DNA of 40,780 nucleotides from Acidobacteriaceae bacterium (GTDB lineage: Bacteria > Acidobacteriota > Terriglobia > Terriglobales > Acidobacteriaceae): NCBI GenBank assembly GCA_030041435.1, contig JASHNW010000051.1, forward strand, positions 1 to 40,780, given 5' to 3'. Shown piece after piece: positions 2,282 to 20,549 of the stretch; the first letter of the stretch is position 1; every line of letters begins with the position of its first letter. A model generated the notes under the pieces. That model worked only from the letters and a program-made list of their open reading frames with translations, ran no database searches and had not been told where the DNA came from. A program made the translations under genes and the position numbers.

Positions 2282-2316
2282 GGGTATAGGGTATAGGGTT
2301 TAGGGTATAGGGGTTA
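2282..2316. repeat. Solo 7-bp tandem array (GGGTATA type)
   Basis: Five consecutive heptamers in one register: GGGTATA twice, GGGTTTA, GGGTATA, then GGGGTTA. The array begins 8 bases after the mmsA stop and ends directly at the first base of the inverted-repeat element at 2317. The same heptamer family bounds the four-helix-bundle gene at 19507-19986. Here no opposite-facing array and no cargo gene is present, so it may be a remnant of such an element (inference). Confidence 0.8.
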
Positions 2317-18291: not shown

Positions 18292-18422
18292 ACGTCTGAG
18301 GATAGTCCAAAAGAACGAGTGCCGGGGAGTTCGGGGCGGCTCGGTCGCGGGGCGCGCGCGGGGTGGGTGACGGATGGGTGCGTGGCCGTATCTAATGGGT
18401 GGTTGAACGAGCGAGGGGAGCG

Positions 18423-19502
18423 ATGAGAGGCGCAGGGGTCATGACGATGGCGCTGGTGCTGGGGCTGGCTGCGGGGCTGGCGACCGTAATTGCGCCGACG
18501 GCCGCTGCGCAGATCGCGGCGAACGGAAAGCGGCTGATCCTGAAAGACGGCACGTACCAGATCGTGGCGAAGTACGAGATCCACGGCGACCGGGTGCGCT
18601 ACCTGAGTGCAGAGCGCGACGACTGGGAGGAGATTCCCTACGCGCTGATCGACTGGCCGGCGACCGATAAGTGGAACAAGGAACATGGGCCAGGCGCGGC
18701 GGCAACGGGCGCGGAACAACCGCCGGCGGGGAACGGGCAGCCCGAGGCGAACGGGCAAGGTGGGGCGAATGCAGGAGACGCTGGTCTGAGCGAGGCGGCG
18801 AAGATCGATGCCGAAGCTGCGGCGGTGCGCGCGGACCTGCGGGCGCGGACGCCGCTGGTGGCGCCGGGCTTGAACCTGCCGGACGAGAGCGGGATCTTCG
18901 TGCTGGACAACTTTCAGGGGATACCGGAACTGATCCGGCTGGGGCAGACGGTGGGGATGGTGAGCGGCGGCACGAGCCACAACGTGCTGCGGGCGGCGAT
19001 CGATTCGTTTCATGGGTCGCAGGAGCCGGTGCGGATCAACGGACAGGCGGCCGGGGTGCGGCTGCATGTGGACGATCCGGCGCTCTACGTGAGCCTGAAT
19101 TCGCAGAACGACGAGGAAGTGGAGCCCGAGTCGGCGCTGGTGGTGAACACGCACGGCGCGAGCTCGGTGCCGGAAAAGAACGACTACAGTTCGCCGGACA
19201 GCCGGTACGCGATCGTGCGGGTGGATGTGCGTCCGGGCGAGCGGGTGATTGGGGCGGTGCGCATCACGCGCGCCGGCGACACGCGGCAAAGCGAGGACAT
19301 TATTCCGACGACGGCGACGATTCTGCCGGGGCGGCACTGGATGAAGCTGACGCCGAAGGAGCCTCTGACCATCGGCGAATACGCGCTGATGGAGATTCTG
19401 GGGCCCGGCCAGGTGAATCTGGATGTGTGGGATTTCGGAGTGTCGCCGAATGCGCCGGAGAATCGGCATCCGCTGACTCCCGTCAAGGACGGGCAGAACT
19501 AA
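18423..19502 (+). CDS. Secreted protein of unknown function
   Basis: 359 residues from ATG 18423, chosen because GAGGGGAG (18411-18418) is well placed. A signal peptide covers about residues 1-28 (ALVLGLAAGLATVIAPTAAAQ). The next segment, KRLILKDGTYQIVAKYEIHGDRVRYLSAERDDWEEIPYALIDWPAT, resembles the start of many secreted acidobacterial unknowns that open with a short beta-rich module. A Gly/Ala/Asn-rich linker follows, then a C-terminal beta-rich part (DVRPGERVIGAVRIT, GQVNLDVWDFGV). No catalytic motif is evident. The heptamer-bounded element begins 5 bases after the stop. Confidence 0.75.
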   Translation: MRGAGVMTMALVLGLAAGLATVIAPTAAAQIAANGKRLILKDGTYQIVAKYEIHGDRVRYLSAERDDWEEIPYALIDWPATDKWNKEHGPGAAATGAEQPPAGNGQPEANGQGGANAGDAGLSEAAKIDAEAAAVRADLRARTPLVAPGLNLPDESGIFVLDNFQGIPELIRLGQTVGMVSGGTSHNVLRAAIDSFHGSQEPVRINGQAAGVRLHVDDPALYVSLNSQNDEEVEPESALVVNTHGASSVPEKNDYSSPDSRYAIVRVDVRPGERVIGAVRITRAGDTRQSEDIIPTTATILPGRHWMKLTPKEPLTIGEYALMEILGPGQVNLDVWDFGVSPNAPENRHPLTPVKDGQN

Positions 19503-19506
19503 ATGA

Positions 19507-19534
19507 GGGGATAGGGTATAGGGGATAGGGTATA
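19507..19534. repeat. Left heptamer array
   Basis: Four perfect-register 7-mers, alternating GGGGATA and GGGTATA, two of each. They begin 4 bases after the stop of the upstream gene. They face the right array in inverted orientation and lie 62 bases before the four-helix-bundle start. Confidence 0.85.
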
Positions 19535-19596
19535 GAAATTAGTCCCGTTACCAAAGGCAGGGTGCGCGTTGTCCGACAGGCGTGTAGAACAACGGT

Positions 19597-19968
19597 GTGG
19601 GCCGTCCGATCCAATCGCATCGCGAACTTGTTATTTGGCAGCGTGCCATCGAGATGTGCGCCGCGATCTATGAAGTGACGCGGTGCTTTCCGCGCGAAGA
19701 GATGTACGGTTTGACGAATCAACTGCGTCGAGCCAGCGTCTCCATCCCAAGCAACATCGCAGAAGGGTACGGGCGGCTGTCGCGAGAACAATACAGACAC
19801 TTCCTCGGCATCGCGCAGGGCTCCAATCTGGAAATTCAGACGCAACTGGAAATCGCAAGGCGACTGCGATTCGCAGATGCGTCTGTCATCGAGAAGGTTG
19901 AAGCTTTGTCGTTCGAGACGGGGAAAATGCTGACTGCTCTGCTGAAAAAGCTGACGCCTAAACCCTAA
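19597..19968 (+). CDS. Four-helix-bundle protein (S23/IVS family)
   Basis: 123 residues from GTG 19597. The sequence SHRELVIWQRAIEMCAAIYEVTRCFPREEMYGLTNQLRRASVSIPSNIAEGYGR, then REQYRHFLGIAQGSNLEIQTQLEIARRL, is the classic family first seen in 23S rRNA intervening sequences and related to the Avd accessory protein of diversity-generating retroelements. It folds as four helices and forms a pentameric barrel in known relatives. Its cellular role is unknown; basic surfaces suggest nucleic-acid binding. There is no reverse transcriptase or variable repeat here, so it is not part of a retroelement. The gene is codon-wise less GC-rich than its neighbours, and its 3' end lies inside the right heptamer array. 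Confidence 0.9.
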   Translation: MGRPIQSHRELVIWQRAIEMCAAIYEVTRCFPREEMYGLTNQLRRASVSIPSNIAEGYGRLSREQYRHFLGIAQGSNLEIQTQLEIARRLRFADASVIEKVEALSFETGKMLTALLKKLTPKP

Positions 19969-19986
19969 TCCCTATACCCTAAACCC
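19959..19986. repeat. Right heptamer array, overlapping the gene's stop
   Basis: Four 7-mers read on plus as TAAACCC, TAATCCC, TATACCC and TAAACCC (complements GGGTTTA, GGGATTA, GGGTATA, GGGTTTA). The last codons and the TAA stop (19966-19968) of the four-helix-bundle gene lie inside this array, so gene and array form one unit. Confidence 0.85.
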
Positions 19987-19991
19987 TGCCT

Positions 19992-20549
19992 TTACCCCTT
20001 CTTCTGCATGTCAGTGATGGCGGCGAGGACGTCGGCGCTGTGGACGTTGGGGTCGACCTTCGTCCAGACCTTGACGATTTTGCCGTCGGGATCGATGAGG
20101 AAGGTGTTGCGCATGGCGATTTGCATGGGGCCGAAGCTGCCCAGCGAGCCGTATTGCTGCACGACCTTCTTGTCGGGGTCGGCGAGGAGGGTGAAGGTCA
20201 GCGAGTCCTTGGTGCAGAACTGCTTGTGGCTGTCGACGGTGTCGACGGAGACGCCGAGGATGACGGCATTCAGCGCCTGGTACTTGTCGAGATCGCGCTG
20301 GAAGTTGTGGGCCTCGATGGTGCAGCCGGTGGTCATGTCTTTGGGATAGAAGTAGAGGACGACCCACTTGCCTTTGTAGCTGTCGAGAGAGACGGGCGTG
20401 CCTTCCTGATTGGGCAGTGTGAAGGTGGGTGCGGTCTGGCCGACTTCAGGCATGGGCGCGTTATCGACAGCGCGCGCGCGGACGACGAAGACGCCGGCTA
20501 CGACGAGTACGACAGCGGCGGCGATGGCGAGGACGGAGTATTTCGACAT
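19992..20549 (-). CDS. Membrane-anchored BCP-like peroxiredoxin
   Basis: 185 residues from ATG 20549, preceded by GGAGAA. An N-terminal hydrophobic segment (about residues 6-23) should anchor or export it. The thioredoxin-fold peroxiredoxin domain follows (EVGQTAPTFTLPNQEGTPVSLDSYKGKWVVLYFYPKDMTTGCT) with peroxidatic Cys76. Bacterioferritin-comigratory proteins often carry a resolving Cys five residues later; here that place is His81. Cys112 (HKQFCTKD) is the only other cysteine. It is therefore either a 1-Cys enzyme or resolved through Cys112. It follows lpxI on the same strand after 95 bases. Confidence 0.88.
   Translation of the reverse strand: MSKYSVLAIAAAVVLVVAGVFVVRARAVDNAPMPEVGQTAPTFTLPNQEGTPVSLDSYKGKWVVLYFYPKDMTTGCTIEAHNFQRDLDKYQALNAVILGVSVDTVDSHKQFCTKDSLTFTLLADPDKKVVQQYGSLGSFGPMQIAMRNTFLIDPDGKIVKVWTKVDPNVHSADVLAAITDMQKKG

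Follow-up and report, generated by a model that had tools for sequence, protein, structure and literature searches.

The 480-bp unit at positions 19507-19986 of a 40,780-nt stretch of Acidobacteriaceae DNA (the window) probably represents a transposable element of very small size. We read this element as an S23 intervening sequence (IVS) located between genes, with insertion that would be directed by its S23 protein. Four GGGNNTA heptamers per side, in inverted orientation, flank a single S23/IVS gene of the PF05635 family (Table 1). The arrays were seen by reading and both were picked up by TRF; the stop codon of the S23 gene falls within the right array, and the unit is placed between two convergent genes whose stops lie just outside the arrays, a layout that a first-pass annotation of the window had described. 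Its assignment of the protein to the four-helix-bundle (S23/IVS) family agrees with profile matches (PF05635 at E 4e-36; TIGR02436 also matched). It had likewise seen no transposase, and the ORF list and the Pfam and NCBIfam profiles gave none within the unit, whose sole ORF is the PF05635 gene. By contrast, its label of the left gene as mmsA-like is unsupported, this gene having no Pfam match at E 0.001 and no NCBIfam match, and the term telomere-like, used there for the heptamers, describes a likeness of sequence alone. That annotation had proposed that heptamer arrays form the ends of a minimal mobile element, in which the four-helix-bundle protein would be either cargo or partner of the mover. 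The idea of such an element was largely borne out, the strongest support coming from occupied and empty sites on plasmids. Two points go beyond it: the arrays abut stop codons, and the unit sequence varies by locus.

Table 1. Features of the window unit and its surroundings, with a solo array elsewhere in the window
Feature	Position	Strand	Remarks
Left neighbour gene	18399..19502	+	ORF and gene caller; stop TAA 19500-19502; start may be 18441
Left heptamer array	19507..19534	+	GGGGATA GGGTATA GGGGATA GGGTATA; first base 4 nt past the left gene's stop
Leader stretch CGTTACCAAAGGCAGG	19546..19561	+	Read by eye, here and in the flanks of related loci
S23/IVS four-helix-bundle gene	19597..19968	+	123 aa; GTG start; stop TAA 19966-19968
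Right heptamer array	19959..19986	-	GGGTTTA GGGTATA GGGATTA GGGTTTA; 5 nt past the convergent gene's stop
Convergent neighbour, AhpC/TSA (PrxQ-type peroxiredoxin) gene	19992..20549	-	Stop 19992-19994; profile matches
Solo GGGNNTA array, five units, without S23 gene	2282..2316	+	8 nt past the stop of the gene ending at 2273

When the RNA of the unit is folded, the two arrays pair to form the terminal stem (z -6.36; 0 of 100 shuffled sequences scored as well). Pfam and NCBIfam profiles gave neither a known catalytic domain nor a nuclease in the window S23 protein, and no family among the PADLOC anti-phage defence models matches this protein or the Trichormus S23 protein. Its relatives in the PDB, 2gsc (E 1e-23) and 2rld (E 0.0016), contain five chains each. 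By eye, the leader CGTTACCAAAGGCAGG appears to recur upstream of several related S23 genes within the genus, and a GTTACCAAAGGCAGG-like stretch, which in the window occupies 19546-19561, precedes the S23 genes at L079, L084, L170 and L192. Here and below, the neighbour stops, the array counts beside genes of the source genome, the array densities and the stop-codon counts of the GGGNNTA arrays use gene calls by a home-made caller.

Heptamer arrays accompany S23 genes well beyond the window. A search of the genus for S23 gave 51 matches in 12 genomes, of which 48 were examined and three short fragments dropped. At a lag-7 score of at least 12, an array was present upstream of 24 and downstream of 17 of these 48 genes, while other periods, except 14 (a multiple of 7), reached at most 1/48. 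In the source genome, all six S23 genes have a 7-bp array at this score on at least one side. For comparison, among 388 other genes in array-selected stretches, 43 had an array upstream, 47 downstream and 7 on both sides, at score 10. At the family level, 111 of 150 genomes encode at least one S23 gene, and two further sets of family loci displayed an array on either side in 19/30 and 24/40 cases, with other periods found at most twice. A scan of 84,980 species' genomes extended the survey: the best 80 of at least 583 confirmed relatives were kept, so that this wider sample is biased towards the window protein's relatives, and 78 were used (two Brucella loci, L271 and L295, were left out by choice), plus 7 plasmid loci. 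For the group counts, 6 of these 85 rows were dropped for short flanks. In this set of the best 80 of at least 583 relatives plus plasmids, arrays scoring at least 12 were found at 14/18 Acidobacteriota and 25/61 other loci. Period-8 arrays were present at 9 of the 61 non-Acidobacteriota loci, and the period is therefore not always 7. Plasmid loci, 15 of 16 of them cyanobacterial, carried an array in 11/16 cases, with period 8 in two, and one of two archaeal (Methanophagales) loci had an array (L250, score 11, on one side). At L378, L379 and other loci outside the Acidobacteria, 8-bp arrays were noted in place of 7-bp ones.

The first-pass annotation had asked whether such arrays are commoner next to this gene family than elsewhere, which is the case. 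Close to S23 genes, at up to 300 bp, the genus, family and wider sets had 1.02, 0.91 and 0.90 arrays per kb (lag-7 score at least 12); more than 500 bp away the corresponding densities were 0.109, 0.024 and 0.092 per kb, the genus background being raised because its stretches were chosen for arrays. Across all 202 S23 loci, 149 had an array of score at least 9 on some side and 90 on both, leaving 53 with no array at score 9. We also considered two narrower formulations. A link to GGGNNTA alone proved too narrow, as 1/6 of the S23 genes of the source genome has arrays of that unit versus 6/6 for any 7-bp unit. The G-quadruplex was ruled out as a general principle, most units at other loci being without G-tracts.

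The unit differs from locus to locus (GGGAGCC, GTTGCTA, CAGCGTT, CAGAGCT and others within the genus) and is common to the two ends of the same locus, in inverted orientation. At 75 of the 90 loci with arrays on both sides, at least 6 of the 7 positions of the left consensus agree with the reverse complement of the right one; shuffled partners reach this level in 4% of cases and the direct orientation in 7/90. In an earlier set of 75 loci (78 less three with short flanks), inverted similarity exceeded the 95% level of mismatched pairs in 65 and the 99% level in 35, the direct-orientation control giving 5/75. In the wider set, inverted left-right similarity reached the 99% level of mismatched pairs at 8/18 Acidobacteriota and 39/61 other loci, and direct similarity reached it at 0/18 and 14/61, so that part of the left-right similarity outside the Acidobacteriota is not orientation-specific. 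L232 (a duplicate of G011:C12) is left out of the 202-locus comparison and of the AG and CT counts. AG was present in 81/89 left and 74/83 right consensus units; the corresponding same-strand figures for CT were 26/89 and 27/83. Between different loci, the share of pairs with units at least 6/7 alike was 2, 4, 7, 17 and 35% as protein identity climbed from below 40% to at least 70%, suggesting that the unit changes alongside the protein, though exceptions are numerous among the individual pairs.

Cyanobacterial plasmids, on which the S23 gene and both arrays are missing together at near-identical empty sites, demonstrate that gene and arrays behave as a single unit, being either both there or both lacking at otherwise near-identical sites. 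Plasmid C of Trichormus variabilis ATCC 29413 carries an S23 copy (L377) at a site that lacks it in six plasmid records, with flanks about 98% identical. In the two of these that were read, the empty site contains GTAATTAAC once, and the occupied site reads GTAAT, element, GTAATTAAC, a 5-bp duplication of GTAAT at a stop codon. A third plasmid (L384) has a truncated copy at the same site. In Nostoc ATCC 53789, comparison of plasmid pNsp_a (L375) with two empty plasmids revealed a duplication of TTCTA across a stop codon, and a second Nostoc site (L376) an imperfect one, TAATG versus TTATG, with 3 bp exact. No clean junction was obtained for L374/L385, L315/L389 and L373/L393; hence the six base-level plasmid pairs comprise two with a clean 5-bp duplication, one imperfect and three with none readable. 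The plasmids also hold gene-less forms: L391 and L392, at different sites on two other plasmids, are copies of about 190-220 bp with ends as in the Trichormus S23 element, and L386 consists of inverted arrays without a gene at a site occupied elsewhere.

Chromosomal relatives of the window locus also include empty sites, the existence of which the first-pass annotation had put forward as a test. The neighbourhood of the left gene and PrxQ was recovered in 12 copies from 11 genomes of the genus, 5 of them without the unit. Two genomes, G000 and G006, have the S23 gene in forward orientation; it is inverted in G004, G008, G009 and one G011 copy, a remnant in G010, and absent from G001, G002, G003, G007 and the other G011 copy, which still has two units behind the stop. 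These empty loci encode proteins 60-70% identical and are not near-identical DNA, and hence provide no base-precise empty site. In trees built from the 39 genus rows kept after omission of proteins with a stop or of fewer than 95 residues, six S23 genes of the window locus form a clade (97/97) with one from elsewhere in G008. The G004 copy is placed next to that of the window with weak support (92/72), and its host clusters with G001 and G007, both empty at this locus (100/100, PrxQ tree). Both transfer with insertion and loss with inversion could have produced this pattern, and the opposite orientation need not mean separate insertion, as inversion between the arrays could account for it. Behind argB, G000 and G009 have S23 genes of different clades, with argB products 91% identical.

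GGGNNTA arrays are not confined to the window unit. The three-unit pattern, with one mismatch allowed, had 98 matches in the source genome versus 16 for the backwards-read control, and arrays occur at about 35 sites, some of them on the antisense strand ahead of a start codon. Four inward pairs (L051, L059, L060 and L062) enclose no S23 gene, their loops measuring 16-119 bp. Arrays standing alone, paired arrays and the short copies lacking the gene appear to derive from S23 elements. Array count tracked the matching S23 gene for one of the three array types tested. GGGNNTA matches numbered 49, 32, 29 and 22 in G000, G004, G006 and G008, each of which has a GGGNNTA-like S23 locus (one side being readable in G006 and G008), and 5, 3, 3, 3, 2, 1, 1 and 0 in the other eight genomes of the genus; the backwards control stood at 18 in G006 because GGGATTA arrays match it too. 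Among the 40 family loci read, to which this comparison is limited, a strict TAGGGNNTAGGG array lies beside an S23 gene in five of the eight genomes with matches (G092, G019, G047, G107 and G089, the others being G017, G109 and G103) and in none of the four without matches (G055, G076, G101 and G052). Within the genus, CAGAGCN counts were not cleanly separated by the matching S23 gene (G000 30, G007 29, G006 18, G008 11, G009 11, G005 9, G001 6, G011 6, G004 5, G002 2, G010 1, G003 0), and TAGAGTTT arrays were rare everywhere, at most two per genome. Two further observations concern such arrays: AAGGCAGGG was found repeatedly at the 5' start of many solo arrays, and L071 (G000:C128, positions 2069-2329), on a 5-kb contig, consists of four direct repeats about 78 bp apart, each with a four-unit GGGNNTA array.

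These gene-less forms bear on the main rival to S23-directed movement, according to which mobility or self-amplification resides in the arrays. An unrelated host enzyme would move them, and the S23 gene would be cargo, selfish or useful, that came to rest between inverted arrays much as it does in the hairpin loops of 23S rRNA. The numerous GGGNNTA sites of the source genome without an S23 gene, the inward gene-less pairs and the short plasmid copies L391 and L392 are all compatible with such a scheme, as is an S23 protein without known catalytic domain. However, at the empty plasmid sites neither gene nor arrays are present, and the locus-specific units, common to both ends, follow the S23 phylogeny, which one foreign enzyme would not explain. 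We consider this explanation rather unlikely.

Stop codons are a frequent neighbour of the arrays. The outer edge of the 5' array lies between -25 and +12 nt from the stop of an ORF in the same direction at 82/111 loci, and that of the 3' array within the same range of a convergent ORF's stop at 54/116 loci, compared with 7.2% of 4509 random points. These results show that the outer edge of the 5' array is usually found right next to the stop of a codirectional gene. The GGGNNTA arrays follow the same tendency: in a count of 37 arrays, which omits the 5-kb contig C128, 21 begin between -30 and +10 nt from a stop on their own strand (random intergenic points, 2.5%) and 15 lie 3-9 nt behind one (1.6%). 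Such positions would suit arrays acting as 3'-end signals of the neighbouring genes, G-quadruplex or hairpin terminators with the S23 gene merely in between, and published GGGNATC heptamers of Xanthomonas and Nostoc, which lie on the sense strand no more than 50 bp from stops, form G-quadruplexes in vitro (accessible part of PMC4692102). Yet most other units at S23 loci are not G-tracts (AGTTCTC, CAGAGCT and AGCAGTC, for example), genes at the array-less empty sites still end normally, and the link between gene and arrays is maintained across phyla, making a purely RNA-level role quite improbable. Replication slippage in the long intergenic gaps that house S23 genes is scarcely credible as a source of the arrays, for although long perfect arrays exist (L310 and L268, for example), array density near S23 genes is 9 to 37 times that found more than 500 bp away, other periods are nearly absent, and the inverted unit common to both sides contradicts it.

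An element whose insertion is directed by its S23 protein thus remains our preferred reading. The S23 ring would recognise its own heptads, bring the two ends together, as a DNA or an RNA hairpin, and thereby direct insertion; a host or partner enzyme would have to supply the cutting and joining activities, given that the S23 protein has no known catalytic domain. The RNA-binding protein TRAP forms a ring that holds spaced (G/U)AG triplets. Since most S23 units carry AG once per 7 nt, successive subunits of the S23 ring could, by analogy, each hold one unit. Solo arrays and array pairs may have been moved in trans or left by decay. In the accessible part of PMC4990558, a toroidal homopentamer is cited as the structure of Xanthomonas S23. 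The same paper states that the S23 protein of Coxiella is believed not to be produced in vivo, a point against any need for the protein in that lineage.

The connection with known intervening sequences is direct in one case. Among 20 loci scanned, one is located within a 23S rRNA gene (L318, on the Azospirillum plasmid AZO_p2), and its ends form a 36-bp inverted repeat (31/36 matching) made of 7-bp units. These heptad-built ends tie the element class to the known intervening sequences. According to the accessible part of PMC4990558, the Coxiella IVS (helix 45) has a 28-bp terminal stem and three tandem GACAGAT heptamers ahead of its S23 ORF, RNase III cuts it at the first repeat, and rRNA intervening sequences in general are suspected of mobility, with undefined ends. 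Like them, the window unit has an S23 ORF between complementary ends that form a stem. Unlike them, it is located between two protein genes, and most loci are intergenic, usually behind a stop codon. As the window copy lies outside a 23S rRNA gene, we do not claim the status of an rRNA IVS in the strict sense. General heptad ends, locus-specific units and the short target duplications read in some plasmid pairs go beyond the description of the IVS in the accessible part of PMC4990558.

Other known systems resemble the unit in part. RAYT genes encode a tyrosine transposase. RAYT/REP-REPIN systems share with it a single gene, inverted copies of a dispersed repeat and gene-less inward pairs, but the only ORF of the window unit is PF05635, an unrelated four-helix bundle, with no tyrosine transposase gene, and its repeats are tandem heptamers rather than REP palindromes. 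Insertion sequences and MITEs also have terminal inverted repeats (here at 75/90 loci), whereas the window unit encodes no insertion-sequence transposase. With the Avd protein of diversity-generating retroelements (bAvd, PF22296), the window S23 protein has its fold superfamily in common (a weak match at E 2.8e-7, below the cut-off of that model), but it scores 21.1 bits on the Avd equivalog, for which the cut-off is 80. The STRR repeats of cyanobacteria are dispersed intergenic arrays of 7 bp. The TAACTGA arrays of Beggiatoaceae and cyanobacteria are also 7-bp, intergenic and dispersed (accessible part of PMC4679880), and the GGGNATC arrays showed no association with known mobile elements (accessible part of PMC4692102). 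The arrays of S23 elements are likewise 7-bp, intergenic, dispersed and often beside stops, and we infer that the GGGNATC, TAACTGA and STRR arrays belong to the S23-element class. The term S23 is not named in the accessible parts of PMC4692102 and PMC4679880, and the open-access full text searched yielded no paper joining S23 genes and heptamer arrays as a class.

More tentatively, S23 elements may constitute a separate class of autonomous transposable element, whose ring-shaped four-helix-bundle protein, in place of a classical transposase, would recognise the heptads at both ends, target stop codons and co-evolve with the unit, and which would have seeded the published arrays of cyanobacteria, Xanthomonas and Beggiatoaceae as well as the rRNA intervening sequences. 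Such a class would cover many bacterial phyla and at least one archaeon. S23 proteins are widespread and annotated as 'four helix bundle protein' or 'S23 ribosomal protein'; to our knowledge they have no assigned function, and we know of no cause proposed for bacterial heptamer arrays. One anatomy would join S23 proteins, rRNA intervening sequences and heptamer arrays, and, if this holds true, an element of about 0.5 kb would be added that is mobile although it encodes no recognised nuclease. The model predicts unit-matched binding, duplications at stop codons and movement that is lost without the S23 gene.

Several individual loci deserve mention. At a Chloroploca locus (L298) the strand sense of the arrays is reversed, and the unit of a Clostridia locus (L307) is near-palindromic. 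On two cyanobacterial plasmids (L315 and L316), S23 genes are located between cas6 and cas4, and at L317 the S23 gene lies between two ribonucleotide reductase subunit genes.
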